64,000 nt of DNA from Phycisphaerales bacterium (lineage in GTDB: Bacteria > Planctomycetota > Phycisphaerae > Phycisphaerales > UBA1924): assembly GCA_020853815.1 (NCBI GenBank), contig JADYYE010000022.1, positions 1 to 64,000 of the forward strand, read 5' to 3'. Shown in pieces: positions 3,338 to 33,860 of this stretch. How positions within the stretch are numbered: the stretch's first letter is position 1; every line of letters begins with the position of its first letter. A program made the translations under genes and the position numbers. The notes beneath the pieces are model-generated. The model searched no databases and was not told the DNA's origin. It saw only the letters and a list, made by a program, of their open reading frames with translations.

Positions 3338-4039
3338 TGACCGCCCGAAACACCCAACGCGACGAGGCTCTGCTGGCTCATCTCGGGCTCTACCGGGTGA
3401 GTTTCCGCGCCACTATGGCCGCGATCTTCTTTTCCGGTCGCTCGCCCGCGAATGTGCTTCAGCGGCTTCGAACCGAGGGACGGATCGTCTCCCGCGGGGG
3501 CCTGCCGAATCGCCTGCGCTACTACCAGTTGACGGCCTCGGAGGCCGCGGCCCGAGGCGTACCGCTCGCTCGGACCCGGCCGCCCAAGCCCCAAGCCTTC
3601 GCCGCGCACATGGCCACGCTGTGGTACTGCTCGCTCGCCCCTGGCGGACGGGGAAGGCGCCGCCTTGAGCCCGAGGAGTTGCAGGACCTTTTCCCACAAC
3701 AAGTTCCGAAAGGACCGCATGTCCTGGAGCGGGGGCGAGCCCAGGGTCATACGCGTGCGGTGGGTACCCGCCGCGACCCCGGCCCGCTCGGCCGTGCGAT
3801 TCCTGCGCAAGCGTCTCCGACACCTCGCGAAGTCGCCTTCAATGGGCATAATGGTCCGCAATAGGCAGTATGCTTTCGTGTTTGTCACGGACTCCGAACC
3901 CAAGCGGGCCCGCCTGCTCCAACTGGTGAACAGCCATGCCACATCAAGTCGAGCCGAGATCAGAGTTGAATACGCGCCCCGAGACTGGACCTCGCGAGCA
4001 CTCCTCGCTGCTGCAGAACCTCGACCGCGAGCCCCATGA
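3337..4039 (+). pseudogene. Replication-relaxation-like protein, frameshifted
   Basis: The frame starting at 3337 gives a sensible winged-helix N-terminus (MTARNTQRDEALLAHLGLYR and onward) up to about EELQDLFP near 3690. It then turns into low-complexity G/P/R-rich sequence. The sensible protein continues in the next frame (HNKFRKDRMSWSGGEPRVIR, later RNRQYAFVFVTDSEPKRARL) to a stop at 4039. One base appears lost or gained around CCTTTTCCCACAAC. The combined protein would be about 234 residues and resembles its neighbour at 6832. Either the gene is broken, or a sequencing error or frameshifting event lies in the T/C-rich run. Confidence 0.6.
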
Positions 4040-15830: not shown

Positions 15831-16072
15831 GCAATACGCATCCACTCCCACGCACTCATCGCGAGGTCGTCATTCGAAAGAACCGCCCGACCGGATGGTG
15901 GGTCATATACGCTGGCATGGGATCTGACGGCACCCGGTATGAAGAAGTGTGCAGCGAGCGACGTGAACCTTTCGCGACGATCGAGGAGGCCCGGAGCGCG
16001 GCCCGTTTCGTCGCTTCGTACTTCTTGAACGACGATGGCACAGCCATTCCGGTCAGGGAGGAGCAGAAGTGA
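15827..16072 (+). CDS. Small protein between hsdR and hsdM
   Basis: The 81-residue frame overlaps hsdR (ATGA at 15827) and hsdM (GTGA at 16069), so it is almost certainly translated as part of the operon. It has an arginine-rich start, a likely beta hairpin (REVVIRKNRPTGWWVIYAG) and a helix (FATIEEARSAARFVASYFLN). It resembles small single-domain DNA mimic or adaptor proteins only in size. No family was recognised. A regulatory or assembly role in the restriction complex is an inference from position alone. Confidence 0.65.
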   Translation: MSNTHPLPRTHREVVIRKNRPTGWWVIYAGMGSDGTRYEEVCSERREPFATIEEARSAARFVASYFLNDDGTAIPVREEQK

Positions 16073-17556
16073 GCAGTTCCGTCGGCGACAAACTCTGGCA
16101 CCTCTGTCACACCCTCCGCCACGACGGCATCGGGTACATGGACTACATCGAGCAGATCACGTACCTGCTCTTCCTCAAGATGGCCGACGAGAAGTCCGTG
16201 GACCTGCCCAAGGGCTGCCGCTGGCCCGACCTCCGCGACCTCGCGGGCGAAACGCTCACCGACACGTACATCGAGATGCTCCGCAAGCTCGGCAAGGCCG
16301 GTGGCATCCTGACCGAGATTTACTCCGGTGCCCAGTCCCGGTTCACCAAGCCCGTGAACCTCAAGGCCGTCATCAATCTCATCGACGAGGTCGAATGGAC
16401 CAGCCTCGGTGTGGACGTGAAGGCCGAGGCGTACGAGCATCTTTTGGAAAAGGCCGCAAGCGAAGGCAAGAAGGGCGCCGGCCAGTACTTCACGCCCCGC
16501 AAACTCATGCAGTCGATCTGCCGCTGCATTCGCCCAGACCCGCGTGTCGCCAAGGACTTCACGGTCTGCGACCCCGCCTGCGGGACGGGCGGGTTCCTCG
16601 TCTGCGCGTACGAGTGGCTGATGGAACAGACCAAGGGCGGCGCCATCGACCGCGATCTTGCCAGGCGAGTCCGATCGAAGACCTTCATGGGCCAAGACCT
16701 CACCGCCCAGCCCCGCCGGCTGGCGCTCATGAACCTTTTCCTCCACAACGTCGTGCCGACCATCGGCTCGGGCGACACCATCTACGACCCGCCGCCGAGT
16801 GAGAAGTATGACGTCATTCTCACCAATCCACCCTTCGGCACCAAGGGTGCCGGACAAACCCCCAGCCGAGACGACTTCACCGTCGAGACCAGCAACAAGC
16901 AGCTCAACTTCCTCCAGCACATCCTCACCGTGCTCAAGCCCGGCGGCCGGGCTGCAGTAGTCCTGCCCGACAACTGCCTCTTCGCCGACCAGGCTGGCGA
17001 GGTCTTCAAGGTGCTCACTGAGGAGTGCAACCTCCACACCGTGCTCCGTCTGCCTCGCGGCACGTTCACGCCCTACTGCCCCGGCGTCAAAGCCAACGTC
17101 GTCTTCTTCCAGAAGGGTTACCCAACCAAGTCCGTGTGGATCTACGACGCACGTTCCAACGTCCCCAGCATCACGAAGAAGGACCGCCCACTGACGAGCG
17201 AGCACTTTGCCGAGTTTGAGCGCTGCTATGGCATCGACGCCAACGGCCGCTTCGGACCCAAGCAGGGCAAGCCCCGCGACGAGTCCACCAGCCCAGCCGG
17301 CGACAAAGGCTGGCTCGGCGGCGGACGCTGGAAGTCCTTCGGCATCGACGAAGTGAAAGAACGCGAGTTCAAGCTCGACGGCTTCAAGTGGCTCAAGGAC
17401 GAGTCTCTCGACGACGCGGACGAGTTGCCGGAGCCGGAGGAACTTGCCACCGACGCCATCAGCGAGTTGGAGGCCGCCGTCGAGGAACTCCAGATGGTGC
17501 TCACCCTGCTCGACCCCAACGCGGAGCCCGCAGAGGCCCAGGAGGCTCGCGGGTGA
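16069..17556 (+). CDS. hsdM: Type I DNA methyltransferase, M subunit
   Basis: The 495-residue protein starts with the HsdM N-terminal helical domain (LWHLCHTLRHDGIGYMDYIE). It has methyltransferase motif I DPACGTGGF (from about 168) and motif IV NPPFG (253-257), typical of N6-adenine methylation. It would methylate the site chosen by HsdS and form the MTase core. The GTG start overlaps the previous stop as GTGA. The C-terminal 60 residues are acidic and helical, probably contacting HsdS. The next gene overlaps by GTGA at 17553. Confidence 0.95.
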   Translation: MSSSVGDKLWHLCHTLRHDGIGYMDYIEQITYLLFLKMADEKSVDLPKGCRWPDLRDLAGETLTDTYIEMLRKLGKAGGILTEIYSGAQSRFTKPVNLKAVINLIDEVEWTSLGVDVKAEAYEHLLEKAASEGKKGAGQYFTPRKLMQSICRCIRPDPRVAKDFTVCDPACGTGGFLVCAYEWLMEQTKGGAIDRDLARRVRSKTFMGQDLTAQPRRLALMNLFLHNVVPTIGSGDTIYDPPPSEKYDVILTNPPFGTKGAGQTPSRDDFTVETSNKQLNFLQHILTVLKPGGRAAVVLPDNCLFADQAGEVFKVLTEECNLHTVLRLPRGTFTPYCPGVKANVVFFQKGYPTKSVWIYDARSNVPSITKKDRPLTSEHFAEFERCYGIDANGRFGPKQGKPRDESTSPAGDKGWLGGGRWKSFGIDEVKEREFKLDGFKWLKDESLDDADELPEPEELATDAISELEAAVEELQMVLTLLDPNAEPAEAQEARG

Positions 17557-19415
17557 CGCTCACCTTTGACGAACTCTGGAAGCGACTCAACGACCTGGAC
17601 GAGACCGTCCAGATCGAGGCCAAGGCGGGCGAGCAGATCGGCCCGTCGATGCTGGAAACGATCTCCGCCTTCGCCAATGAGCCCGGGCGACACGGTGGCT
17701 ACCTCGTGCTGGGCGTCCAGCGAGCCGAGGATGCGTTGTTCCCAACGTACGAAATCGTCGGCGTGCCCGACAGCGACAAGCTCCAGTCCGACCTCGCGTC
17801 GCAGTGCCGAACTCAGTTCAACGCCCCTATCCGGCCCCAAATCACAGTTGAGGCTCGCGACGGCAAGCGTGTGGTGATCGCGTACGTCCCCGAGGCGGCT
17901 CCCAGCGAGAAGCCGGTCTACATCCAGGCACGCGGCCTGCCCAAAGGGGCCTTTCGCCGCATCGGATCCAGCGACCAAAAGTGCACCGACGACGACCTAG
18001 CTCTGTTCTATCAATCCCAGTCACACAAGTCCCTCGACGAGACCGTGATCGCCGACGGTGAACTGAGCGACTTCGACCCCACCGCGATCCAGGAGTACCG
18101 CCGCACTCGCCGCGAAGCAAATCCGCTCGCCCCGGAACTCGCGTACTCCGATGAGGACCTCCTCTACTCGCTCTCGTGCGTCTCTCGCGTCAGCGGCGTG
18201 GCCCGCCCGACCATCGCCGGCCTCATCCTCTTTGGCAAGCACGCGGCCATCCGTCGCCACTTCCCGCTGATGCGCGTGGACTACATCCGAGTGTCCGGCC
18301 GTGAGTGGGTGAAGTCGCCCGACGAGCGCTTCGATTCCATCGACCTGCTCGGCCCGCTCATGCAGACCATCCCGCGTGCGATCAACGCGGTGCTCGATGA
18401 CATCCCCAAGACCTTCAAGCTCCCTGCGAACTCCAACCGCCGCGAAGATGTCCCGCTCATCCCTCGCACCGCCATCCGCGAGGCCATCGTCAACGCGGTC
18501 ATGCACCGCAGCTACCGACTCAACCAGCCCATCCAGATCATCCGCTACAGCAACCGCCTGGAGATTCGCAATCCCGGCGTCTCGCTGGTGCCCGACGACC
18601 GCCTCGGCGAGCCCGGCTCGCAGCAGCGCAACCCGAAGATCGCCGCGGTCCTCCACGAGACCCGCTTCGCCGAGACCAAGGGCTCCGGCATCCGCGCCAT
18701 GCGAGAAGCCCTGGCGGACGCGAGCCTCAGCCCGCCGACCTTCGAGTCCGACCGCGACAAGGACACGTTCGTTGTCACGTTCCTCTTCCACCACTTCCTC
18801 AGCCCCGAGGACGTGAAGTGGCTCGGCAACTTCGCCAACCTCGAACTCTCCGAGGACGAGCAGCGAGCCCTCGTCTTCGTCCGCGAGGTCGGGGCTATCA
18901 ACAACTCCGCGTACCGTGACCTCAATCGCGTTGAGACCCTTGTCGCGAGCGGGCACCTGCGCCGGCTCCGCGACGACGGTCTACTTGACCAGAAGGGCAA
19001 GGGAGCCGCGACCTACTACGTCCCCACCGAACGCCTCCTGAATCCGGCAACGCAGCCCCCAAGACCCTCCGCCAAGGAGGGCAGTCCCTCCACACCGAAC
19101 TCTGTGGATAAGGCCTTACCTACAGGGTTCCGGGGCAACCTACAGGGCTTACCTACAGACCTCGCCACCGCAGTCCGCGAACTCGGCCTCCGGGCCAGCC
19201 CAGCCGACATCCGGGCGGTCATACAAAGACTCTGTGCCTGGAAGACCCTCTCATCCGAGCAGCTCTCCGAAATCCTCGGCCGCAATCAGCATCACCTCAT
19301 CACCACCCACCTCCGCCCCATGCTCCGGGACGGCGACCTGGACTACCTCTACCCAAACCAGCCCGGCCATCCTCAGCAGGCGTACAAAGTGACGCCGCGA
19401 AAGGCGGGCCCATGA
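17553..19415 (+). CDS. AlbA_2/Schlafen-type regulator with HATPase-like domain
   Basis: The frame is open upstream, but the GTG at 17553 overlapping the hsdM stop (GTGA) is the natural start, giving 620 residues. Residues about 10-150 form an AlbA_2 (Schlafen) domain (VQIEAKAGEQIGPSMLETIS, then GGYLVLGVQ). Residues about 250-410 carry the RecG-like ATP-binding C-terminal domain with AIREAIVNAVMHRSY, LEIRNPG and ETKGSGIRAM. The C-terminal 200 residues contain winged-helix-like segments. This family is often inserted in type I restriction operons and is thought to regulate or modify nucleic acids. Its exact role here is unknown. Confidence 0.8.
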   Translation: MTLTFDELWKRLNDLDETVQIEAKAGEQIGPSMLETISAFANEPGRHGGYLVLGVQRAEDALFPTYEIVGVPDSDKLQSDLASQCRTQFNAPIRPQITVEARDGKRVVIAYVPEAAPSEKPVYIQARGLPKGAFRRIGSSDQKCTDDDLALFYQSQSHKSLDETVIADGELSDFDPTAIQEYRRTRREANPLAPELAYSDEDLLYSLSCVSRVSGVARPTIAGLILFGKHAAIRRHFPLMRVDYIRVSGREWVKSPDERFDSIDLLGPLMQTIPRAINAVLDDIPKTFKLPANSNRREDVPLIPRTAIREAIVNAVMHRSYRLNQPIQIIRYSNRLEIRNPGVSLVPDDRLGEPGSQQRNPKIAAVLHETRFAETKGSGIRAMREALADASLSPPTFESDRDKDTFVVTFLFHHFLSPEDVKWLGNFANLELSEDEQRALVFVREVGAINNSAYRDLNRVETLVASGHLRRLRDDGLLDQKGKGAATYYVPTERLLNPATQPPRPSAKEGSPSTPNSVDKALPTGFRGNLQGLPTDLATAVRELGLRASPADIRAVIQRLCAWKTLSSEQLSEILGRNQHHLITTHLRPMLRDGDLDYLYPNQPGHPQQAYKVTPRKAGP

Positions 19416-19792
19416 AGCGTGACATGGACCTCGTCCGCCTGATCCTTCAAAAAATGGAGGAGCACGAACTCGGCCGAGCCCCCAGCGGCATGACGTTCGA
19501 GGGCTACACCGCCGAGCAGGTTGGCTATCACGTCTTGCTCATGGGTGAAGCAGGCTTGCTGCTCGCCGTCGAGTCCAAGGAGATTGGTCGCAAGTCTCCG
19601 TCGGCCCAACCCATCCGCCTGACCTGGGCCGGGCACGAGTTCCTTGATGCGTCCCGAAGCCCCGAGCGCTGGGAGCGTGCGAAGAGCGCTGCCAAGGGCG
19701 TCGGCGGCCTCGCGTTCGATGTCCTCAAGTCCATCCTGATCACCACCGCCACAGAGGAGGGCTCGGCTTGGCTCAAGTCGCACCTTCCATGA
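19412..19792 (+). CDS. DUF2513 protein
   Basis: The 126-residue product begins MKRDMDLVRLILQKMEEHE, the signature of DUF2513, and continues with a winged-helix-like segment (GYTAEQVGYHVLLMGEAGLL, then RLTWAGHEFLDASR). Related proteins occur in phage and defence loci and are probably DNA-binding. It overlaps the previous gene by four bases and the next by ATGA, which places it firmly inside the restriction operon, between the regulator and the specificity subunit. Confidence 0.85.
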   Translation: MKRDMDLVRLILQKMEEHELGRAPSGMTFEGYTAEQVGYHVLLMGEAGLLLAVESKEIGRKSPSAQPIRLTWAGHEFLDASRSPERWERAKSAAKGVGGLAFDVLKSILITTATEEGSAWLKSHLP

Positions 19793-21855
19793 CATTGCCA
19801 ACACCCGTTCGATCAACGAAGCCTAGAAGTGGGCTGAGCTGGCGCGTCGTGCGGCTCGCAGACGTATGCGAGGTCAATCCCTCGAAGCCAAAGCGCGGCA
19901 CCATCGCGCCCAGCCTTCCGGTGACCTTTGTCCCGATGCCCGCCGTTGACGCAGAATCTGGATCGATTGCGTCTCCATCAGTACGGCCGTACTCCGAGGT
20001 GTCCAAGGGCTTCACGTACTTTGCCGACGGCGATGTGATCATGGCGAAGATCACGCCCTGCATGGAGAACGGCAAGGCGGCCATCGCTCGGCGCCTCACA
20101 AATGGCATCGGCTTTGGTTCAACGGAGTTCCATGTGCTTCGTCCTGCGGAGCAGGTACTCGCGGAGTACGTGTACTACTTCATCCGCCAAGAGGCATTCC
20201 GCCAAGCCGCCGAGATGGAGATGACCGGCTCTGTCGGTCAGAAGCGTGTCCCAGCAGACTTCATCGAGAACGCGGAGCTCCCCCTCCCTCCCCTCGCCGA
20301 GCAGAAGCGGATCGTGGAGGCGATCGAGCGGCTGACGGCCCGCGTGGACGCGGCCCGCGCCCGCCTCGCCGCCGTCCCCGCCATCCTCAAACGCTTCCGC
20401 CAAGCCGTCCTCGCCGCCGCGTGCTCGGGACGGTTGACTGAGGAGTGGCGAGAGTCGCGATCCGGTCATGCCAACGCAAATGACCTCCTACGTCACGCCG
20501 AGACGGTTCGTCGCCAGGCGGGTCGGGTGCCCCGCGTCGAGGGCGCACCCCATGAACTGGATGCACCACCAGCGTGGACTCGCGTCTTCTTCGGCAATCT
20601 ACTCACACTTCTCACTAGCGGATCGCGTGGATGGGCCGAGTTCTACTCGACGACGGGCCCACTCTTCGTCCGTTCGCAGGACATCAACACGGATCGACTT
20701 GTCCTCGACGATGTAGCCCACGTCACGCCACCGGCGCACTCCGCAGATCGCGCCAGGACGCGTGTTCAGCGGCATGACGTGCTGCTCACAATCACGGGCG
20801 CGAACGTGACCAAGTGCGCACTCGTCGACACCGACGTGCCAGAGGCCTATGTCAGCCAGCACGTTGCGCTTTGCCGCCCAGCCTTGCCTTCGCTTGCACC
20901 ATTCCTTCACCTATGGCTGACCAGCCCTCAGCACGGCCGCGGAGTGTTGCTCGACGTCGCGTACGGCGCAGGCAAGCCCGGCCTGAATCTCGACAACATC
21001 AAGGAGATACCTCTCGCATTGCCAACCCCCGAAGAGCAAGCCGAGATCGTCCGCCGCGTCGAGTCGCTCATGAAGCTGGCCGACACCATCGAGCGCCGCG
21101 TCACCGCCGCCCAGGCCCGCGCCGACAAGCTCACCCAGTCCGTCCTCGCCAGGGCGTTCCGTGGCGAACTGGTTCCAGCCATCGAGGCTAAACCCGAAGC
21201 CGTTGCGGACCTCGCTCGGGCGAAGTCCGTCGTGTGGCGGTTCGAGGACTTCGCCGCTGTCCAAGCCGAGATCGTCCGTCGATTCCCCAACGACCCAACG
21301 CTGGGCCGGAAGAAGTTGTTCAAGCTCACCTACCTCGCTGCGGCCCTCTGCAACGCGAAGACCGAGAAGCCGTTGAAGCGCGACGCGGCTGGCCCCTACG
21401 ACGGCAAGTTGCAGGCCGATGTCGAATCCCACGCAGCCAGCCAGAAGTGGTTCACAGCCAACAAAGTCGCTCGTGACGCGGGCGAGGCACACTACCGGCC
21501 AGGAACGCTGGGCACGCACGCTTCCGCGGCGTGCAAAGCCTTGCTCGCCGACCAATGGACACGATTCGATGCACTGCTGGCCGCGTCGAAGTCATGGGAT
21601 TCCAAAGCCGCCGAACTTCACGCGACGACCCACGCCGCGTGGAATGCCCTTCTGGCAGAGGGTGTCGAAGCGACGCCAGACGCGATCGCGAATCGGTTCT
21701 TCGAGTGGAGCAACGAGAAGGCCAAGAAGTTCTCGAAGTGGCAGGTGGAGTCGGCGTGCAAGGCACTTGCGAACATGGGAATCACGCCCACAGGGCGAGG
21801 CCCGATCATCGAGAGAGAATCGACGGCACCGCTGTTCGGAGGAATGTCGCTTTGA
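19789..21855 (+). CDS. hsdS: Type I restriction specificity subunit with extra C-terminal domain
   Basis: Two target-recognition domains are visible. The first runs about residues 15-170 and is followed by a coiled-coil spacer (LAEQKRIVEAIERLTARVDA). The second runs about 255-420 and is followed by EEQAEIVRRVESLMKLADTI and ARAFRGELVP. After this usual HsdS end, about 220 more residues follow (GRKKLFKLTYLAAALCNAKT, DAAGPYDGKL, then helical sequence), a known but uncommon extension. I chose the ATG at 19789 (ATGA overlap, 688 residues) over a TTG at 19768. The two domains would define a bipartite recognition site that I cannot predict. Confidence 0.92.
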   Translation: MTLPTPVRSTKPRSGLSWRVVRLADVCEVNPSKPKRGTIAPSLPVTFVPMPAVDAESGSIASPSVRPYSEVSKGFTYFADGDVIMAKITPCMENGKAAIARRLTNGIGFGSTEFHVLRPAEQVLAEYVYYFIRQEAFRQAAEMEMTGSVGQKRVPADFIENAELPLPPLAEQKRIVEAIERLTARVDAARARLAAVPAILKRFRQAVLAAACSGRLTEEWRESRSGHANANDLLRHAETVRRQAGRVPRVEGAPHELDAPPAWTRVFFGNLLTLLTSGSRGWAEFYSTTGPLFVRSQDINTDRLVLDDVAHVTPPAHSADRARTRVQRHDVLLTITGANVTKCALVDTDVPEAYVSQHVALCRPALPSLAPFLHLWLTSPQHGRGVLLDVAYGAGKPGLNLDNIKEIPLALPTPEEQAEIVRRVESLMKLADTIERRVTAAQARADKLTQSVLARAFRGELVPAIEAKPEAVADLARAKSVVWRFEDFAAVQAEIVRRFPNDPTLGRKKLFKLTYLAAALCNAKTEKPLKRDAAGPYDGKLQADVESHAASQKWFTANKVARDAGEAHYRPGTLGTHASAACKALLADQWTRFDALLAASKSWDSKAAELHATTHAAWNALLAEGVEATPDAIANRFFEWSNEKAKKFSKWQVESACKALANMGITPTGRGPIIERESTAPLFGGMSL

Positions 21856-21918
21856 CGGATGCATCTCGGACCGAACCGCTCGCGACCTCGTAGGTGCAAC
21901 TACCAGGAAGGCCGTCGC

Positions 21919-22107
21919 ATGACCCAACCACTTGATCGGACGACATCCCCCGCGATGGCAGACGCTATCGAACGCTGCGCCTCCCCCGCCCGGGCCCGTG
22001 CCGACAAGCCCATCCAGTTCGTTCTCGCCATGGCATTCCGAGGTGAGCTGGTTCCGCCTGATTCCGAAGTGCCACGGACCAGAATACAGGAGAACCACTC
22101 TGCCTGA
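21919..22107 (+). pseudogene. Remnant of an HsdS C-terminal tail
   Basis: The 62-residue frame contains MADAIERCASPARARADKPI and FVLAMAFRGELVP. This parallels the second spacer end of the intact hsdS upstream (LADTIERRVTAAQARADKLT, SVLARAFRGELVP). Everything before it is missing, so it looks like the leftover 3' end of another hsdS gene, for example after a recombination that swapped specificity genes. A ribosome-site-like AGGAAGG lies before its ATG. Its stop overlaps the proposed start of the ATPase gene. Confidence 0.6.
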
Positions 22108-24757
22108 GTCGATTCCCCAACCGCAGCCAGTAGTCGAACACGCTCAGGGAGTCGTTGCGTGGTCCGCTTCGCTACCCGTGTGGATGCAGGATGCACTCCG
22201 TCGGCTTTATTCCCACGATGCACTCACCGCTGAGGATGAGGACGATCTGCTGTGCTTGTGTGTCACGAAGCATGGTCTTTCATACACCTCGGGCAAGACG
22301 GTTGAAGCAAGACCGATCACCGCTGCACATGTCCCAGTCGAAGGGCACACCGGCCCAGCGGTGACCCTCGCGGACATGCTTGATCTACAAAACGTCAACG
22401 CGCTCGCTCCCGACCAGAAGCTCCACTTCGCACAGCGGGGCCTCACGATCGTCTACGGCGCCAACGGGTCGGGGAAGTCCGGCTACGTGCGTGTTCTCGA
22501 GCGCGCGTGTCGAGCACGCCACCGAGAGGAGCGCTTGCTGCCAAATGTCTACGCTGGCGATCCGAATACCCCCGCCAAGGCGACTTTCAAGTTTCGCGAA
22601 GGCGACCAAGACCACAGCGTCTCATGGGAAGACAAGCCGAATACTTCTCCGCCAGCGATGTCCAGAATCAGCGTCTTTGACGCACGCTGCGCCGACGTCC
22701 ATGTCGAAGCGTCGAATGAGCTGGCTTATAGACCCCGCGCTCTCTCCATTCTGTCGGCGCTCGCGAAGACTGCGAAAAGGCTCAAGGAGAAGCTCCAAGC
22801 TGCTGAGAGGAAACTGGAGGCCGAAGGACCGCCGTGGTTGCAAGCTAGTCCACGGCCGTACCACGACTACTCGCGCGTTGGGGAACTCCTCGCTCGCCTT
22901 GCGCCAACTACCGACTGGAACACCGTCGAAGCGCTCGCCGTCGTGAGCGAAGAGGAAAAGCACCGGACCGAGCAACTCCGTCGAGATCTCGGGGAGCCAC
23001 CGGAGAAGGCGATCCAGCGGCATCGGGGTGTACTTGCTCGGCTCAAGGCGGTGATTGATCTTGTGGCTGATGTAGATGAGAAGCTCTCAGACGACCGATT
23101 GGCCGTATTCCGACGGCTCTGCGTCGATGCTGAGACCAATGCCGAGGCCTCTCGGCTGGCTGCTTCACGTGCATTCCGTGATGATCCTCTTCGTGGTGTC
23201 GGTTCGGAGACGTGGCGAGCCTTGTGGGAAGCTGCACGCCAGTTTTCACAGATCGAGGCTTTCCCTAGTCAGCCTTACCCGGTTACTGAGCCCGGCAAGG
23301 CATGCGTTCTGTGCCAACAACCCCTTTCGAACGACGGTGCCGAGCGACTCGCTCGGTTCGAGCGGTTTGTACAAGACACCACGCAGCGCGAGGCGGACCG
23401 AGCGGCAAGCGCGAGGGAAACCGCGAGGAGAGCGTTTGCTGCCGTTGGTCTTGGTGCCAACGCCAGATCCGCCGCGGTCGATCACATCCAGTCCGAGCAC
23501 AATGACGCGGAGCTTGCGAGGTCACTTCGCCTATTCCTTGTCACCGCGCGATTGCGTCAGCGCACACTGAGACGCCTCGGCCACCCGAATGAGCTGCAGA
23601 ACGTCCGGGCGCTCCAAGCGTCACCTAGCTCATCGCTCGCCACGATCTCGCAGCGAATCACCGAGCGGATGAGGCAACTCGCCGATCCTGCCGCGTCTTC
23701 GGCCCGGAAGAAGCTGGAGCGAGAACTTCACGAACTTGAAGACCGCGTCTGGCTTGGATCGGTGCTTGACGTGGTTCGCTCCGAGATTGCACGACTCGGG
23801 AAGCTGGAAAAGGTGAGGGCTGCGATCCGCGACACAAACACGGACCCGATCACCCGCCGCGCCACGTTGCTGGCGAAGGTGCTCGTCACTGACAGGCTAC
23901 GCGATGCCTTCGCCGACGAAGCAAACAAGCTTGGACTGGGGTATCTGCGAGCCGAGATGAAGCAGCTCGGCGGGGACATCGGTGATCCGAAGTTCGGGAT
24001 TCGACTCATTCGCAGCCCGAATGCCAAGATCGGTCAAGTGTTCAGTGAAGGAGAACACAGGTGCATCGCGCTCGCGGCGTTTCTGGCTGAGTTGGCCACG
24101 GCAGACGAGCCATCTGGGCTCGTTTTTGATGACCCGATCTCTTCGCTTGATCACAACCATCGCGAGGATGTTGCCAAGCGGCTCGTTGCCTTGTCCCAGG
24201 TGCGCCAAGTCATCCTGTTCAGCCACGACCTCCCATTCGTGTTCATGCTCGATCACTACGCCGGAGAATGCAATGCGCCGCGGAGCTTTCAGTACATTGC
24301 ACGCACGAATGATCGCGTCGGAATCGCGTCAGCAAACCCGCCGTTCAAAGCTATACCGCCAAGGCGAGCTCTGGAGGGCATCTCCACGCACCTTCGCAAC
24401 AAGTCGCACGCGTACGAAGCGGGACAACACGACGATTGGACCATCGCCGCCAAGGGAATCGCAGGGCATCTCCGCGATTGTTGGGAGCTTGCCGTGGAGC
24501 AGGCTCTGAGGCCTGTTGTCAGCCGGTTCGCACACAAGGTCAAGCCAGGCGAGCTCAAGATCGTTTGTGTCCTGACGCGTACGGATGCTGATGAAGCTGC
24601 GGATGGATACGGTCAGTGCTCAAGGTGGGCGCACAGCGACAGTCCTGAACTGGGCATGAGCTCCCCGACTCCCCAACAACTCACTGAGGAAATTCAGAAG
24701 CTAACGACTTGGCTTGCCCGCGTCGAGTCGGCTCAGCGATCTGCTGGCAGAAGTTAG
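22100..24757 (+). CDS. PrrC/RloC-like ABC ATPase with zinc-hook-like motif
   Basis: The frame is open from 21932, but its first 56 codons overlap the hsdS remnant in another frame. The best ribosome site (AGGAGA, six-base spacing) precedes a CTG at 22100, giving 885 residues. Walker A is GANGSGKS (about 120-127). The signature-like SEGEHR (about 649) and Walker B VFDDPISSLDHNH (about 675-687) match AAA_13 proteins such as PrrC and RloC. A CVLC motif (about 402-405) sits within helical sequence, as in the RloC zinc hook. The C-terminal 130 residues contain RDCWE and a later RWAHSD, possibly nuclease residues. Such proteins guard type I systems against phage counter-defence. Confidence 0.85.
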   Translation: MPESIPQPQPVVEHAQGVVAWSASLPVWMQDALRRLYSHDALTAEDEDDLLCLCVTKHGLSYTSGKTVEARPITAAHVPVEGHTGPAVTLADMLDLQNVNALAPDQKLHFAQRGLTIVYGANGSGKSGYVRVLERACRARHREERLLPNVYAGDPNTPAKATFKFREGDQDHSVSWEDKPNTSPPAMSRISVFDARCADVHVEASNELAYRPRALSILSALAKTAKRLKEKLQAAERKLEAEGPPWLQASPRPYHDYSRVGELLARLAPTTDWNTVEALAVVSEEEKHRTEQLRRDLGEPPEKAIQRHRGVLARLKAVIDLVADVDEKLSDDRLAVFRRLCVDAETNAEASRLAASRAFRDDPLRGVGSETWRALWEAARQFSQIEAFPSQPYPVTEPGKACVLCQQPLSNDGAERLARFERFVQDTTQREADRAASARETARRAFAAVGLGANARSAAVDHIQSEHNDAELARSLRLFLVTARLRQRTLRRLGHPNELQNVRALQASPSSSLATISQRITERMRQLADPAASSARKKLERELHELEDRVWLGSVLDVVRSEIARLGKLEKVRAAIRDTNTDPITRRATLLAKVLVTDRLRDAFADEANKLGLGYLRAEMKQLGGDIGDPKFGIRLIRSPNAKIGQVFSEGEHRCIALAAFLAELATADEPSGLVFDDPISSLDHNHREDVAKRLVALSQVRQVILFSHDLPFVFMLDHYAGECNAPRSFQYIARTNDRVGIASANPPFKAIPPRRALEGISTHLRNKSHAYEAGQHDDWTIAAKGIAGHLRDCWELAVEQALRPVVSRFAHKVKPGELKIVCVLTRTDADEAADGYGQCSRWAHSDSPELGMSSPTPQQLTEEIQKLTTWLARVESAQRSAGRS

Positions 24758-25590: not shown

Positions 25591-26178
25591 TTGGACGACG
25601 AACTTGAGCGATTGCAGGACACCCGATTGCGGGTGATTTTGGAGGAGTACCGAGCCCTCTACTCACTGCTCGTTTTCCGATTGAGCACGATGGAGCAGCG
25701 GGTGCCCATCATCGCCGCACTGCTGTCCGCAACGCTGGGCGGCGTCACCTCGCTGCCAGCATCAGTGCAACCGCTCGTGTTCCTTGGCCTGCCTCCCGCA
25801 CTCGTATGGCTGCTCCGCACAACGCTCGGGCACGCTCGTTCAAAGCAGGACGTCAAGACCCGGATCGACGAGATCGAGCGAACGGTCAATCAGATGCTCG
25901 GCTCACGACTCATGGCGTTTCAATCGCGGCATCCGAGCCGCGGAGGCGATGTTGCTGGTCGGAGCGGACGCGAGCTCATCCTCTCCGTTTTCCTCGCTTC
26001 TCTCGGCCTGCTCGCGGGCTGCGTGTTGCTCTATGCCGATTCCGGGCACCGACTCATTGGTTCGGACCTGTACCTGGTCTTCTGCTCCGTGTGCGGCCTG
26101 TGGATGTGCCACGACCTCGTCCAACTCAGCCGATATCGACCGCATCACGACCTCGTCATACGAGGGCAGCAGGACTGA
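25591..26178 (+). CDS. Four-helix membrane protein, unknown
   Basis: The TTG-start frame gives 195 residues with a cytoplasmic-looking helix (LQDTRLRVILEEYRALYSLL) and two close hydrophobic segments (about 40-58 and 62-78). A basic helical region and two more hydrophobic segments (about 130-147 and 155-172) follow. The layout, an amphipathic start with two membrane hairpins, resembles small membrane effectors in defence islands, but I recognise no family. The neighbours are the restriction operon and a reverse transcriptase. It overlaps the convergent gene at 25903 by 276 bp. Confidence 0.6.
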   Translation: MDDELERLQDTRLRVILEEYRALYSLLVFRLSTMEQRVPIIAALLSATLGGVTSLPASVQPLVFLGLPPALVWLLRTTLGHARSKQDVKTRIDEIERTVNQMLGSRLMAFQSRHPSRGGDVAGRSGRELILSVFLASLGLLAGCVLLYADSGHRLIGSDLYLVFCSVCGLWMCHDLVQLSRYRPHHDLVIRGQQD

Positions 26179-26805
26179 ACGCTCGTCAGATTCACCGAAC
26201 GGTTGCATGATCCGGCGCCGCAGGCGAATGCACTGCACCGGCAATGGCTCCAGGGATGCCGCTCGCCGGGCACGGTTGACTGCGCGCCAGACTGTCAGAA
26301 GCTGGCGCCGAACCGGCGCGTACGGCTCGAACGGCGCCGCTCGAAATGCCCGGCACAACTGCTCCACCGATAGGAACGATGACCGTTCCAGCATCCACGC
26401 TTTGAACTCGAGGTAGATCTGCTTGTCGATCCGGACGTGAGCATGTCCGCCGCGATGGCTGATTGAATAGCCCGCAAAGCGGATCGGTGCTCGCCGACAG
26501 TCCTTGAGCACGCCGGCCTCCCGCTCAAAGAGCGGGTGCAATCCGTGCGTGGCCAGCAACATGAAGAACCTGCCATGCCTGAGATAGTGGACATTCGCGA
26601 ACCCCGACCGCTTGCGCCGCGCCCGTGTCCACTTGGAGACGTCGATCCCATAGCGGTCGATAAGCTTGCGGTCGACCACGGACGGGTCCTTGCCATGTGG
26701 AACCTGCCCGATGACGTAGAACCAGTAGCCGTGGGTGACATAGCTCACGGCGAGCTGCTGGATGAACCCTTCCGGGGTGATGGCGATACAGCGATACATG
26801 CCCAC
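25903..26805 (-). CDS. Conserved protein of unknown function with probable run-on C-terminus
   Basis: Residues 1 to about 205 look like a compact conserved protein: MYRCIAITPEGFIQQLAVSY, HGYWFYVIGQVPHGKDP, NVHYLRHGRFFMLLATHG and FAGYSISHRGGHAHVRIDKQ. I have seen this pattern in conserved hypothetical proteins of Planctomycetes, with no known function. The last about 95 residues (from about 26190 down) are simply the antisense of the membrane-protein gene and are compositionally odd, so the original stop may have been lost. It is divergent from the reverse transcriptase, 180 bp away. Confidence 0.65.
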   Translation of the reverse strand: MGMYRCIAITPEGFIQQLAVSYVTHGYWFYVIGQVPHGKDPSVVDRKLIDRYGIDVSKWTRARRKRSGFANVHYLRHGRFFMLLATHGLHPLFEREAGVLKDCRRAPIRFAGYSISHRGGHAHVRIDKQIYLEFKAWMLERSSFLSVEQLCRAFRAAPFEPYAPVRRQLLTVWRAVNRARRAASLEPLPVQCIRLRRRIMQPFGESDERSVLLPSYDEVVMRSISAELDEVVAHPQAAHGAEDQVQVRTNESVPGIGIEQHAAREQAERSEENGEDELASAPTSNIASAARMPRLKRHES

Positions 26806-26985: not shown

Positions 26986-27909
26986 GTGTTCCGAACCCTA
27001 TTCTTGCGGATGCCTGCGAACACGCCCGATACTCTGGCTCCAAACTCTCTTGATTGGGCGAGGGCTCACATCTCGAAGTTTGGTGACACAGACGTGTTCC
27101 CAGTTCCGTTCGAGTTCGAGAGTCTCTGGTCAAATTGGCCGTCTGCTCGTGACGCCCTGGCGACGCAAGATCTGAGTAGCGTCCCGAATCGCGGGAGTCG
27201 GACCATTCTCGTTCCCAAACCGCGTGGCGGCTTTCGCGTAGCCACTCAGTTGGATCCGTTGGACTCGCTTACCTATGCGGCGATGGGGTACGAGGCGGCT
27301 CCGAAAATTGAAGCGTCACGAGTTCCGTCGAACCGGAGAATCGCGTGCTCATACCGCCTGGCACCCTCGGCCGCCGGCGAACTCTTCGTGTCAAACGCGG
27401 ATGGTTGGACGGATTTTCAGGGGCAGTCACGAACTCTTGCGGGCCACCGCACTTGTACACACGTAGCCATGGCGGACATCAGTGATTTCTACAATCAGAT
27501 CTACCACCATCGGTTGCACAACTCTCTCGAAACCGCCCTTGTTCCCGAGCCTCGTCCCAGAAACTTGGAGGCCTTTCTCGGACGAGTCACGGCGAAGCAG
27601 TCGCGAGGGATACCCGTTGGTCCGGCGGCATCGATCCTCTTCGCTGAATCGTGTCTAAATGATGTTGATCAGTACTTGGTGAATCACGGATTCGTACACA
27701 CCCGATATGTCGACGATTTTCGCGTGTTCTGCAAGAGCGAAGCCGAAGCTACGCGGGCTCTCCATGACCTGACCCGGTACCTGTTCACCGCTCACAGACT
27801 TTCGCTTCAGGCACACAAGACTCGGATCATGGAAGCGCGCGAGTTCATCAAGCGTGAACTCGTTGAGCCAGAAGATAGGGAGTCCAAGAGCAAGATCGCT
27901 CAGGCCTAG
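26986..27909 (+). CDS. Reverse transcriptase (Abi/unknown-group type), RT half
   Basis: The 307-residue product has the RT palm motifs in order: SRTILVPKPRGGFRVATQLD, DSLTYAAMGYE, MADISDFYNQIYHHRL (first catalytic Asp), SRGIPVGPAASILFAE, and TRYVDDFRVFC with the catalytic YVDD. DFYxxIYxH and GIPVGP are typical of the unknown-group and abortive-infection RTs used in phage defence, not of group II maturases or DGRs. The start (GTG 26986, or ATG 27010) is uncertain. Translation stops at TAG 27907-27909, and the same frame continues immediately as the next entry. The intact protein of this family would include both parts. Confidence 0.85.
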   Translation: MFRTLFLRMPANTPDTLAPNSLDWARAHISKFGDTDVFPVPFEFESLWSNWPSARDALATQDLSSVPNRGSRTILVPKPRGGFRVATQLDPLDSLTYAAMGYEAAPKIEASRVPSNRRIACSYRLAPSAAGELFVSNADGWTDFQGQSRTLAGHRTCTHVAMADISDFYNQIYHHRLHNSLETALVPEPRPRNLEAFLGRVTAKQSRGIPVGPAASILFAESCLNDVDQYLVNHGFVHTRYVDDFRVFCKSEAEATRALHDLTRYLFTAHRLSLQAHKTRIMEAREFIKRELVEPEDRESKSKIAQA

Positions 27910-27912
27910 AAG

Positions 27913-28590
27913 GTGATACAAGAAGCGATTGCCGCTGCGGGTCACTATGGCGATACAGAGATCGATGAGGAGGAAGTGCTCGAGGAAAATGAGCAGAAGA
28001 TTGCGCGGAAGGCACTGCTCGCGACGTTCAAGAGCTGCGTGGAGCGTGCGCCGATCCACTTGGGGCTCGCTCGCTACCTCCTTCGCCGAGCGGCCAGCCT
28101 CCGCCTGCGCGTACTCGTGCGACCTGCCGTGGAGAACATGCCCGCGCTCACACCAGTCTTCCGGGAACTTGTTCAGTATCTTGATCGCGTGTGGCACTCA
28201 GAGGTGCAGGAAATCGTCAGTGATGCACTACCCGGTTTCCTTAGAGACGACCCACAAGGGTGGTTGCCGTATGTTCAGGATTGGTCCTTGTGGCTGGTCA
28301 CCAAACGCGATGTTCTCACGCCCTCAAGGGCAGTCGCCTTGGCTGAAAAGACTGATCCAACGCTTCGAGTTCGACATCGGGCGCTGTTGGCGATGAAGCT
28401 CAAGCAGGTAGATTGGATTCGCGAGCAGAAGGAAGTCTGGATGAACTTTGGTCCGCGGGAGCGCCGGGCGATCCTGTGGGCAGCGTCAGCGCTGTCCAGA
28501 GACGAGCGACGAGCTTGGCTGGAGCCGATAGCCGCATCCACGGATCTCGTCGATGCTTCGATCGCGATAAAGGTGCGGTCATTGCCTTAG
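27913..28590 (+). CDS. C-terminal helical (alpha-Rep-like) half of the reverse transcriptase
   Basis: This 225-residue frame is in phase with the RT frame; only TAG and AAG separate them. It is all-helical with repeat-like units: LARYLLRRAASLRLRVLVRP, MPALTPVFRELVQYLDRVW, REQKEVWMNFGPRERRAILW and DERRAWLEPI. These resemble the C-terminal helical domain I associate with Abi-type RTs. A GTG at 27913 has no ribosome site, so independent translation looks unlikely. Either the gene is broken by an amber mutation, or read-through produces a 534-residue protein. It ends with tandem TAG codons at 28588-28593. Confidence 0.7.
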   Translation: MIQEAIAAAGHYGDTEIDEEEVLEENEQKIARKALLATFKSCVERAPIHLGLARYLLRRAASLRLRVLVRPAVENMPALTPVFRELVQYLDRVWHSEVQEIVSDALPGFLRDDPQGWLPYVQDWSLWLVTKRDVLTPSRAVALAEKTDPTLRVRHRALLAMKLKQVDWIREQKEVWMNFGPRERRAILWAASALSRDERRAWLEPIAASTDLVDASIAIKVRSLP

Positions 28591-28756
28591 TAGATGGCGA
28601 CGTCGCCGAAAGTAGACGGTTGTTCCGGGCACAACCGCCAAAGCCACGAACTGACTCACCTTCTTGGCGTGCAGGGTCATGCACCGGGCACGCCTGACCT
28701 TCACAGCATCATCATGCGAACCTCCTTGGGCATGCCGCCTGCGCCCTGCCGGGCTG

Positions 28757-29600
28757 GCGGCAGCAAACTCGTTTCCCGAGTTGCTGCCGCTCAAAGCATG
28801 GCGGTAGCGGCGTGCAACCTGCATGGCGTCACCACCCGTGTATTGGATACACGTGTGGCGTACGCCCTCGAAATGCCGTCAGAAGGGACCCGTCCTCCCG
28901 GACAGGTCCCCTCTGACCGCGTGTACACCTTTCCAGAAACCGGCGTGCTCCACGAGAGCACGCCGGGACACCATCGTGACGGGCAAACGCCCGTCGCCGC
29001 TTTCGTGCTCGCCTGTCGCGCCCGGCACCACCCGTAGCGCAGCGAACGACCCCGACACTGCCTTGCAGCGGCATCGCCGGACTTCCGTCCGGTCCTACTT
29101 GCGGCACTCTCCCAGACTGCAGCGTTTGAAACACCTGGACGACGATCCAGGCACCGGGGACCATCCCGGCGGCAGCAGTCCTTCCCGAGTTAGTGATGCG
29201 CGTCGTCTGAACGGTCACGTCGCTGGGAGCTGGGCTCCCGGCCTTGCGTCGTATGTCCGCCCTCCCGGGCGGCATAGTTTCCGCGGAGCACGCCAGGGCG
29301 TGCCCCGTCGATTTCAGCGAGTAGAAACGAGAAGCTCTCGCTTACCCATCGACGCTTGGCCTGAGCGGTTCGGCACCGTCTCCGTTCGAACTTACCGGCA
29401 AGCCCTTCCCTTCTCATCCAGTTGGAGTGAGAGGTTGGGCCTTTCGTGGTTGAGCTTTTCGCCGTCGGGTCACTTGCACCCGATCGCCGAGCCGTGTCCG
29501 CGGCCCGGTCGTCCCTGTCGCCAGGAACGAGCTCCCCACGCCGGCACAGGTTGAACGACCCCGACTGGACGAGCCAGTCCGGGACGAACCCCCTGGGGGG
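28757..29600 (-). ncRNA. Hairpin-dense segment, candidate large structured RNA
   Basis: At least eleven perfect or nearly perfect stems occur in about 840 bp. Arms are at 28757-28771/28777-28790, 28837-28843/28847-28853, 28878-28890/28905-28917, 28940-28950/28956-28966 (11 bp), 28978-28984/28989-28995, 29077-29082/29087-29092, 29134-29139/29146-29151, 29225-29230/29234-29239, 29257-29262/29267-29272, 29288-29294/29297-29303 and 29563-29568/29574-29579. Read on the minus strand, several close on GNRA tetraloops: GGAA at 29083-29086 and GGGA at 29263-29266 and 28896-28899. Read on plus they give UUCC or UCCC. This argues for transcription from the minus strand. The class is unknown; remains of a group II intron are one possibility. 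Confidence 0.4.
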
Positions 29601-29773
29601 ATTTGCACCCTCTTCACGCATCACGACCCGCGGCAGCCACCATGGCCGACCGCGGGCATGTCCTCGTCGCCCCTCTTCCGTGGGGAATCAATCGGATAGA
29701 ACGCCGGGATTGGTCCTTGGTGGAGGGAACGCCCCTCCAGAACAGCAAGGGTTTGCTCCGACGAGCCTCCGTC

Positions 29774-29807
29774 GAACCGGACGAGCGTCTCTCGACGCAT
29801 CCGGCTC
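29774..29807 (-). ncRNA. Group II intron domain V-like hairpin
   Basis: On the minus strand these 34 nt have the exact layout of group II intron domain V. The lower stem is GAGCCGGA/UCCGGUUC with the AGC triad at positions 2-4. The upper stem is GCGUC/GACGC capped by a GAGA tetraloop, and a short bulge lies on the 3' side. Length and loop match the domain V of well-known introns. No maturase gene lies upstream on this strand and no clear domain VI or 5' GUGYG end was found, so this is probably a remnant or an unusual arrangement. Confidence 0.6.
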
Positions 29808-29824
29808 TACGGGCCCACATCCGC

Positions 29825-29868
29825 CGCGGCTGGTGAGGCCGCGCCCTTATGGCCGCTGGTGAGGCGGC
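29825..29868. repeat. Twin hairpins with identical 7-nt loops
   Basis: CGCGGC/GCCGCG (29825-29843) and GCCGC/GCGGC (29852-29868) each enclose the loop TGGTGAG (CTCACCA on minus). They lie just upstream, on the minus strand, of the domain V-like hairpin. Confidence 0.4.
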
Positions 29869-30130
29869 TTTGGCGGGTGGAGTGGTCCGTCACGATGGTG
29901 TCAGCACAGCGTTTGGCCGGCCAGACAGCCATCATTTCAGTACAACAGGGACCTCGACGACACAAGCGCTGGTCACAGGCGGCGGTGCACGAGGTACAGG
30001 AGCAGAGCGAGGGCGACCCCTCCCGCGAAGTTCGGGTAATCGTGAGCGACCACGATGAGTATCAGTGCGACGACGGGAGACACCCCCTGGGTATGCCCTC
30101 GGCAGAATCGGGTGTGACACCCAAGAAATC

Positions 30131-30160
30131 TGTAGCGTCTTGGGGAACAGGTGTTATACT
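30131..30160 (+). promoter_or_regulatory. Candidate promoter for the XRE/ImmA pair
   Basis: A good -10 box TATACT (30155-30160) sits 44 bp before the XRE start codon. The best -35 at suitable distance is the weak TGTAGC (30131-30136, 18-bp spacer). A small dyad GGGTG-TGA-CACCC (30110-30122) just upstream could be an operator, as is common for self-regulated XRE repressors. Confidence 0.45.
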
Positions 30161-30203
30161 GATAGCGAACAGTAGAACAGCGTCGTCGACACCGGAGTTT
30201 CAC

Positions 30204-32338: not shown

Positions 32339-32632
32339 ATGACCGAACGCATCTTCAGCCCCGGAGTGCTCCCCGCCCACTATCGGCGCGACGCCGAAGG
32401 GCGGCTCGTGGAAGTCGCGCCCGCCATGCCCTGCCCGGAACTCCTGACCGAGGAAGAAGCCCTCCGGTATCTCCGCTTGGACATCATCGACATCGACAAT
32501 CCAGAGGACACGCTCCGGCGCTACCGCAAGCTCGGCCTCATCCGGGGAACCCAGGTGGGCAAGTGTGTACGGTACCGAAGGCAGGAGTTGGAGAGGTTCC
32601 TGGAACGAATCACCGAGAACAACCCCCGCTGA
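32339..32632 (+). CDS. Helix-turn-helix (HTH_17-like) protein
   Basis: The 97-residue product has LLTEEEALRYLRLDIIDIDN and TLRRYRKLGLIRGTQVGKCV, then RYRRQELERFLERI, the layout of excisionase-type DNA-binding domains. The 28-bp gap to the integrase start at 32661 suggests co-transcription. It is likely a directionality factor or regulator of the integrase. Confidence 0.75.
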   Translation: MTERIFSPGVLPAHYRRDAEGRLVEVAPAMPCPELLTEEEALRYLRLDIIDIDNPEDTLRRYRKLGLIRGTQVGKCVRYRRQELERFLERITENNPR

Positions 32633-32660
32633 AACGCGGGTGCGAGAAGGGACATGCATC

Positions 32661-33860
32661 ATGGCGGACAAGCCGAGAGTCACGCTCGCGAGCAACGGCG
32701 GGTATTGGCTAGCCTACTTCTATGACTCACTCGGGCGTCGCAGAGCCAGGAGTCTTGGCTCCAAGTCCGAAGTCGGCCGTCGCCAAGCGCTCGTGCTTTG
32801 CGAACGGCTGGCGATCGAGCTCGCCGCCCAGCCGCAAAAAGCCGACGTCGGACGAGCCCCGACCATGGCCGAGTGGATCCAGGTATTCATCACTCTCAAG
32901 CCCGATCTCGGAGCGCGGGCAAGGCGAGCCTACCGCCAGGCGGCCGAGAGGTTCATGAAGTTCTCGGGCACCACAACGCGGATCGACCGGATCACCGCCA
33001 CCGTGGCCGCGGAATGGGTCGCGACGCTCGGCACGCCATACGTCGTGATACAGGATGGCAAGGAACTGAGCCGCACGCTATCGCCATCCACCGTTGCACA
33101 CTACTCCCGGCACGTCCGCTGCATCTTCAACGAAGCCGTGCATCAGGGCGTTCTGGCGGTTAACCCGTTCGCGCGAATCCGCACACAGCCCAAGAAAATC
33201 GAGCGGAGCTGGTGCTATGTCGACCGCGACGTGTTCAATCGCATCCTCGCAGTCTGCCGGAACGATGGATGGAGGTGCTTTGTCGCCTTGCAACGGTTTG
33301 GAGCGTTGCGCAAGGGCGAGGCGTTGGACGTGCGATGGCACATGATCGACTGGGAACGCCACATCCTCACCATCCCGGAGGTCATCACGAAGACCAGCCA
33401 GGAGCGGCTTGTGCCGCTCGACCCCACCCTTTTCGACCTGCTCAAAGCGGCAAGACGCGACCGCAAAGACACCGATTTCATCGTCCACGAGCACGATGTG
33501 GACCGTCGCAGCGACAGCAACCAGCACAGCCGATTCCGGACGGTCCTGAAAAAGGCCGGGGTGCTGCCGTGGGAGGACCTCTTCCAGACGCTTCGCCGCA
33601 ACGCGGTTCAGGACTTGCGGGAAGCCCTCAAGGACCCCTGGGCCGTGACTGCAATCGCCGGTCACTCGGAGGAAGTCGAGCGGAAGTACTACCTTGGCCG
33701 CGTCCGACAGGCCGACATCGAGAGGATCACTGGCGCAGCCAAGGACGCAGAGCTCGACCTCGTTCTCGCCCGCTGGAAGTCACTGTCGCGAGAGACCCGC
33801 GAGAGGATTCTCAGTTTGGTCCGAACGCCCGACGCCGGCGCGTCGCCGTCTACGCCGTGA
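32661..33860 (+). CDS. Tyrosine integrase of the island
   Basis: The ATG at 32661 follows GAGAAGG and gives 399 residues. The domains are an N-terminal arm-binding part (GGYWLAYFYDSLGRRRARSL), a core-binding domain (about 65-170) and a catalytic domain. Residues seen are Arg in FGALRKGEALDVRW, Lys in TKTSQERLVPL, Gln-Thr-Leu-Arg replacing the usual His-x-x-Arg (FQTLRRNAV), His in IAGHSEEVERKYYLGRV, and the Tyr nucleophile there. It lies about 680 bp from the 3' end of tRNA-Lys, the classic position for an integrase using that tRNA as attachment site. Confidence 0.9.
   Translation: MADKPRVTLASNGGYWLAYFYDSLGRRRARSLGSKSEVGRRQALVLCERLAIELAAQPQKADVGRAPTMAEWIQVFITLKPDLGARARRAYRQAAERFMKFSGTTTRIDRITATVAAEWVATLGTPYVVIQDGKELSRTLSPSTVAHYSRHVRCIFNEAVHQGVLAVNPFARIRTQPKKIERSWCYVDRDVFNRILAVCRNDGWRCFVALQRFGALRKGEALDVRWHMIDWERHILTIPEVITKTSQERLVPLDPTLFDLLKAARRDRKDTDFIVHEHDVDRRSDSNQHSRFRTVLKKAGVLPWEDLFQTLRRNAVQDLREALKDPWAVTAIAGHSEEVERKYYLGRVRQADIERITGAAKDAELDLVLARWKSLSRETRERILSLVRTPDAGASPSTP

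Follow-up and report, generated by a model that had tools for sequence, protein, structure and literature searches.

A probable circularly permuted group II ribozyme with an AcpG-like partner protein on a mobile element of a Phycisphaerales bacterium

The window, a 64,000-nucleotide stretch of DNA from a Phycisphaerales bacterium, contains a segment crowded with hairpins (28757-29600) beside an RT gene. To which RNA do these hairpins belong, and does this RNA work with the neighbouring RT? A first-pass annotation had proposed a large structured RNA transcribed from the minus strand, belonging to no named class and possibly linked in function to the RT. The hairpins are real. We found 18 inverted pairs in 28550-30200, including pairs of 21 nt at 86%, 11/11, 12 nt at 92% and 10/10. 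The minus-strand fold of 28757-29600 has an energy of -464.5 kcal/mol, versus -381.7 +/- 8.2 kcal/mol for 20 dinucleotide shuffles (z -10.1), and the plus-strand fold gives z -6.6. The structure is therefore beyond chance, with the minus strand favoured, and the stems are not accounted for by shuffled sequences. A large minus-strand RNA is also borne out by homologues that keep the stems and by compensatory changes. Three loops had been read as GNRA tetraloops on the minus strand; the two GGGA loops do fold as tetraloops, but GGAA is part of a five-base GGAAA loop. The segment had also been described as having no believable protein frame, and indeed the four mechanical ORFs across it have no Pfam match.

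The identity of the RNA is revealed just outside the segment. Rfam flags group II domains 5 and 6 (D5-D6, RF00029) at 29809-29691 on the minus strand, with 48.5 bits for a gathering threshold of 40. This match is the sole one in the 4.5-Mb assembly. Because D5-D6 precedes the hairpin block, the block sits past the end of a normal group II intron. On the minus strand, the domains are ordered P1-P2-D5-D6-(18-nt circle)-D1-D2-D3-D4. We conclude, with a probability of roughly 0.86, that the RNA at ~29868-28612(-) is a circularly permuted (CP) group II ribozyme, accompanied by its own protein partner and carried by a mobile element. Thus, the RNA does have a named class. Its length is ~1.25 kb. The segment first delimited holds the D1-D4 part, but the most conserved part of the RNA, which comprises D5-D6, the splice sites and the circle (29807-29667), falls beyond it. 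The parts of the RNA are as follows.

29852-29868, minus strand: P1 hairpin (GCCGC / CUCACCA loop / GCGGC), from the sequence
29826-29842, minus strand: P2 hairpin with a loop as in P1, from covariation with the loop partner
29774-29807, minus strand: domain 5, catalytic hairpin GAGCCGG...CCGGUUC, from RF00029 and covariation
29691-29773, minus strand: domain 6, whose branch-point A (29697) is bulged and lies 7 nt upstream of the 3' splice site, from the consensus fold and covariation
29673-29690, minus strand: 18-nt segment, predicted RNA circle, with IBS1 at 29678-29673, from the alignment and EBS1-IBS1 covariation
29667-29672, minus strand: 5' splice-site motif GGGCGA and start of D1, invariant in alignments A1 and A4 and matching the motif of published CP RNAs
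29180-29672, minus strand: domain 1 including EBS1, low-coordinate edge approximate, from homology and the consensus fold
29324-29329, minus strand: EBS1 hexamer, partner of IBS1, from covariation
29026-29180, minus strand: domains 2 and 3, edges approximate, from conserved blocks and the consensus fold
28612-29025, minus strand: D4 / 3' hairpins, the last being the GGUUGU-GCCCGGA-ACAACC hairpin, from the sequence, the consensus fold and relatives

CP group II ribozymes, formerly T-large RNA, were described by Roth et al. 2021 (PMC8637638), where five members are shown to be active in vitro. We built a covariance model, R1, from the window clade only (alignment A8, the window and 40 of 52 prepared rows). 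R1 detects the published CP locus of P. naphthalenivorans pPNAP05 with an E value of 2.1e-10. Matches to Thermus CP loci are weaker (pTB2, 3.7e-5; pTT8, 0.0055; pTthSNM1-1f, 0.0073; pTA16, 0.7), and in the Thermus CP RNA search the model gave no match to L118 or L120. These matches to published CP loci place the window RNA in the CP class.

DNA-similarity searches gave matches in 16 of the 201 genomes of the order and in 19 of the 392 of the phylum. Many are short and correspond to D5 alone or to chance; the longer ones hold D5 before D1 with similar spacing. A gapped pattern covering the end of D6 and the start of D1 retrieved 66 stretches from genome_contigs. L086 and L108, chance-like by eye, were dropped before counting; the other 64 look genuine and have the permuted order. 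Pattern-matched stretches are mostly titled Planctomycetota. Other MAG labels, which misbinning may falsify, are Acidobacteria, Opitutaceae, Hydrogenedentota, Armatimonadetes, Thermoleophilia, Bdellovibrionales and Alphaproteobacteria. The nearest relative of the window RNA is found in G083, listed in the same family as the window. Plasmids carrying the RNA are those of Leptolyngbya boryana, Calothrix (two copies) and Planctomycetes K2D. Isolated organisms among the carriers include Gemmata sp. IIL30 (L097), Tautonia sociabilis (L055 and L073) and L. boryana (L114). On the Calothrix plasmid, the two copies (L116:1609-1748 and 3760-3890) are ~2.1 kb apart, with an acetyltransferase and other genes between them. 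D5 of the CP RNA apparently harbours a canonical group II intron at three loci: L092 (oriented -2061..-165), L105 (-1958..-107) and L113 (1313-1409). These nested introns have their own RF00029 D5-D6 (51-60 bits) and share an end point; L092 and L105 also contain an RT ORF. In IMG/VR contigs, neither the RNA pattern nor the proteins found a match.

The relatives give access to covariation. Fourteen aligned rows yield the core consensus UUC(U/G)A(U/C)CCGAU, variable linker, GGGCGA. Alignment A4 contains 56 rows: the window, 53 of 60 prepared rows, L115 and L116. In this alignment, 97.4% of 1385 cells are paired in D5/D6, with double changes in 18 of 25 pairs, and none of 500 shuffles is as good. 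Double-change cells number 232, compared with 58.5 in shuffles. When the D5/D6 columns are slid by 1-3 positions, the paired share falls to 32-53%. GGGCGA is invariant in 56 of 56 rows, though the search pattern demanded the motif for most of them; it is also kept in rows recovered by DNA similarity without the pattern. Thus, the homologue search and the check for compensatory changes suggested in the first-pass annotation both come out in favour of the RNA, with stems kept by relatives and D5/D6 pairs that covary.

The consensus fold, the EBS1-IBS1 pairing and the loop-loop pairings were studied in alignment B (50 rows), which leaves out L071, L074, L080, L092, L099, L105, L113, L048, L069, short-flank loci and duplicate cores. 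EBS1 and IBS1 are paired in 219 of 276 cells, with 46 distinct pairs. Shuffles give a mean of 170 (sd 5.5) and none of 20,000 reaches 219. Region 29329-29324 is the best of 251 gap-free blocks, and five of the six pairs are formed in the window itself. Another candidate for the 5' end of D1, GTGATGCG at ~29625, was displaced by GGGCGA at 29672 on account of the alignment and of EBS1-IBS1. Two loop-loop pairings are also suggested. The P1 loop CACCA (29861-29857) and UGGUG (29030-29026) are 93% paired versus 88% in shuffles (z 6.7), and the P2 loop CACCA (29835-29831) and the D2 loop (29163-29159) are 82% paired versus 72% (z 8.1); in both cases the gain is small, the shuffles number only 60 and relatedness is uncontrolled. 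The linker measures mostly 13-36 nt by eye in pattern-selected loci, a range partly built in because the search pattern admitted only 8-38 nt. In L031, which was recovered independently of the pattern, the splice-site linker measures ~100 nt, beyond the 15-86 nt published for CP RNAs (Roth et al. 2021, PMC8637638).

These data bear on the idea that the RNA is a scrambled, decaying canonical group II intron. Such an intron would bring D5-D6 with it, and canonical group II RTs exist in the phylum. However, the permuted order, the splice motifs and the covariation are common to dozens of loci in several phyla, and EBS1-IBS1 is retained. Moreover, the genome of the window has neither a second RF00029 match nor an RT above the IEP cut-off. 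A decayed canonical intron was therefore rejected, given the conserved permuted order in relatives and the lack of a second RF00029 match in the genome, and we consider it very improbable.

Clustering of the open frames around CP loci identified a single dominant protein family, encoded on the RNA's strand and downstream of it. This AcpG-like ORF and the RT gene that separates it from the RNA in the window are described below.

25903-26805, minus strand: AcpG-like protein of 300 aa, homologous over 26805-26161, with ATG 26799 as the family-like start
26986-28590, plus strand: Drt8-type RT gene with a TAG at 27907-27909, between the RNA and the AcpG-like ORF, from PADLOC

In 39 loci, the AcpG-like ORF starts 957-1647 nt past the D6 core. 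It is present at 43 of the 49 loci where 1.9 kb or more of downstream sequence is available, and 48 of 48 HMM matches are on the RNA's strand. The six loci with room but without the ORF are L051, L056, L061, L066, L096 and L099. Among 392 Planctomycetota genomes, the family occurs in 8, all of which also carry the RNA. Reciprocally, nine of the 392 score the RNA at 80 bits or more with R1, the level at which co-occurrence was counted, and eight of these have the protein. In the ninth, G027, which has no AcpG-like match, the RNA is 372 nt from the contig end. Weaker R1 matches (46 bits and below) were found in 32 genomes; many of these are probably canonical introns. A strict Shine-Dalgarno pattern directly precedes the ORF at 3 of 39 loci. 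The AcpG-like match of L166 (G001) has one internal TGA. In many loci, a hairpin GxxUUGUGCC...AACAAxxC (window 28638-28612) is conserved directly before the ORF. It could be the protein-binding stem of D4.

In the window, the ORF is located 2.9 kb downstream of the RNA because the Drt8 gene intervenes. Co-transcription of the RNA and the ORF may have been lost after this separation. Some DRT enzymes use a neighbouring RNA. Drt8 directly adjoins the RNA, and the DRT2 and DRT9 RNA complexes appear among the structure matches described below, so that the RNA might be the ncRNA of Drt8, as in retrons, DRT2 and DRT9. However, the RNA is conserved at other CP loci without Drt8 and carries group II splice sites. 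The Drt8 gene itself is interrupted by an in-frame TAG at 27907-27909. Both pieces of the split gene match consecutive parts of the Drt8 profile, and the gene is either a pseudogene or affected by a sequencing error. A search for relatives of the window RT near the other CP loci searched found none, so that among these loci Drt8 is present only at the window. Drt8 is therefore not the partner of the RNA. A Drt8-associated RNA was rejected on this ground and we give this idea almost no credit. The functional link proposed between RNA and RT is not supported.

At the level of sequence profiles, the AcpG-like family is a remote homologue of AcpG (TTHC007). Comparison with six Thermus AcpG sequences using hhalign gave a probability of 92 (E 6e-7) over 162 columns, with a score of 48.6 versus at most 22.8 with shuffled columns. 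An HMM of alignment A2 (the window and 34 of 39 rows) matches the T. aquaticus AcpGs of L120 (3.2e-6) and L119 (9.5e-5), these E values being those of a small search set. The pTT8 AcpG itself was not matched by this HMM, and blastp and phmmer alone gave no convincing link to AcpG. The further alignments are A5 (31 rows), A6 (11) and A7 (12 of 27 RTs).

The surroundings of the RNA point to mobile elements. Upstream flanks of 2.5 kb or more are available for 41 loci. Genes for plasmid replication or partition occur at 15 of them, and integrase, XRE or ImmA genes like those of the window at 10. One type of replication initiator matches RPA in Pfam; the other is unmatched but is located beside ParA and ParB. 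In the window, an integrase gene (32565-33857) lies beside tRNA-Lys, where no att repeats of at least 14 nt were found. A promoter and terminator scan found no consensus promoter and no terminator. The window also contains defence-like genes near the element, in 13137-24757: type I restriction (13137-15830 and 19768-21855), an Argonaute-like match (17388-19415) and PDC-S06 (21932-24757).

What, then, is the AcpG-like protein? The AlphaFold2 model of the window protein has a pLDDT of 82, with a core mostly above 95. That of the L065 relative reaches a pLDDT of 96.8 and a pTM of 0.90, and its elements agree with the window model. In both, the order is helix-strand-helix-helix-hairpin-short helix-hairpin, followed by three helices. 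We read these models as an RT palm followed by a thumb. In Foldseek, the matches of the window model are led by group II IEPs and a retron RT (E 4.6e-3 to 1.3e-2, probability 0.96-0.99). For the L065 model, the retron Eco8 RT comes first and IEPs next (E 1.4e-3 to 1.9e-2). Neither model gave a Foldseek match at E of 0.001 or below, and rmsd values are large. With VIA-align, where a best Z of 7-8 is common, the best match is a group II IEP for both the window model (Z 9.2, rmsd 4.3, 186 aligned residues) and the L065 model (Z 10.4, rmsd 3.7, 189 of 209 residues). For the L065 model, IEPs occupy the first ten rows; DRT9 and Prp8 come next, with Z of ~8, and then retrons with 6-7. The viral structure library gave no match below an E value of 0.001. 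In alignment A2, the hairpin at the YxDD position reads YxR, with invariant Y74 and R76 and no invariant DD, and the motif A strand has no invariant Asp.

Sequence comparisons do not extend this resemblance. Using hhalign against IEP profiles, the probability is at most 0.3, within shuffles. No link to IEPs was found in Pfam (no RT match), NCBIfam, PHROGs or the solved-structure search. Because sequence profiles show no IEP link, reading the protein as a maturase rests on its predicted fold and on its exclusive association with the RNA. From these, the AcpG-like protein is probably a dedicated maturase for the CP RNA. The RNA could still be a CP group II ribozyme while the protein is not derived from a maturase, being another RNA-binding or regulatory protein that is palm-like by convergence. 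IEP sequence similarity no better than in shuffles, Foldseek E values all above 0.001 and the commonness of palm folds are consistent with such a protein. Against it, nearly the whole protein aligns, palm and thumb, the ten best VIA rows are all group II IEPs, ahead of DRT9 and Prp8, and the protein is found only beside group II-type RNA. We therefore regard convergence as rather unlikely. At slightly better than even odds, in our view, CP group II ribozymes have retained their intron-encoded protein: AcpG would be a group II maturase of which the palm and thumb remain, which has lost its polymerase site and which lives only with a permuted RNA. Together they would form a back-splicing RNP, paralleling the dead RT of Prp8 in the core of the spliceosome, on plasmids and integrative elements across several phyla.

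How such a particle might work can be proposed from the splice sites. The minus-strand transcript would fold so that the 5'-located D5-D6 meet D1-D4. The branch-point A (29697) would first attack at 29673/29672, the 5' splice site. The linker would thereby gain a free 3' end, which EBS1-IBS1 would hold in place for its attack on the 3' splice site (29691/29690). This would release the 18-nt circle and leave a T-shaped branched RNA. The AcpG-like protein, with its predicted palm and thumb and no catalytic aspartates, would bind and stabilise the RNA as a dedicated maturase. For the window copy, we infer branching, back-splicing and the circle from membership in a class that is active in vitro; the copy would likewise be expressed and active. 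As a guess that follows a suggestion in the 2021 paper (PMC8637638), the RNP may benefit its mobile element through action in trans on RNA or DNA matching EBS1.

The CP class and its chemistry are already in print. Added here are a clade from Planctomycetota and cyanobacterial plasmids with a co-directional AcpG-like protein, and the predicted fold of this protein. Three questions left open by Roth et al. 2021 are touched: how CP ribozymes cope with having no maturase, what kind of protein AcpG is, and what purpose the class serves. In that paper, AcpG is said to have no homology to any known class. In dozens of genomes, the window clade joins the RNA and the AcpG-like protein as a co-directional unit, and it gives AcpG a predicted fold. 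The maturase question for CP ribozymes can now be reduced to a simple assay. Our full-text literature search on AcpG/TTHC007 and group II found nothing relevant beyond Roth et al. 2021 (PMC8637638).

As described in that paper, published CP RNAs share several features with the window. Their domains follow the order D5-D6-D1-D2-D3-D4, the 5' splice site carries GGGCG, and the linker destined for circularisation is short; EBS1-IBS1 is present, P1 and P2 stem-loops stand before D5, and there is no internal ORF. They also have CP-only pseudoknots, which the P1 and P2 loop pairings of the window clade resemble, with light controls for the latter. As in the window clade, acpG is nearby and part of the set is on plasmids, one RNA being placed near a plasmid origin. 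Several features differ. The published CP RNAs named in the available part of the paper come from Deinococcus-Thermus, Firmicutes and Proteobacteria, whereas the window is from another phylum. The window RNA is ~1.25 kb long, compared with a published average of ~900 nt. The 3' end of D6 in the window clade, CUAUCCGAU, differs from that of published CP RNAs. The D5 of the window clade is nearer to that of canonical introns than the pTT8 D5 is; in Rfam it is scored like the D5 of canonical group II introns, while the matches listed for pTT8 include none to RF00029. The AcpG-like gene of the window clade is always downstream and co-directional, whereas acpG is divergent in Thermus HB8. Thus, Thermus AcpG (TTHC007) has the same genetic setting and ~17% identity over 162 columns, but its position and orientation differ.

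Group II IEPs (8h2h_D, 6me0_C, 8t2r_D) share the predicted palm and thumb over 181-189 of 209 residues (Z 9.7-10.4). In contrast with them, the AcpG-like protein has only ~200 aa, lacks most of the fingers and the DNA-binding/endonuclease part, and has YxR for YxDD. Prp8 is likewise RT-like, does not act as a polymerase and sits at a group II-like RNA core. Its RT-like region (4i43_B) is similar to the predicted fold (Z 8.1, rmsd 4.8, 203 residues), a likeness of fold only, and Prp8 is a huge spliceosomal protein, unlike the AcpG-like protein. If our reading is true, a catalytically dead RT serving a bacterial group II RNA would be a helpful point of comparison when the origin of Prp8 is considered.
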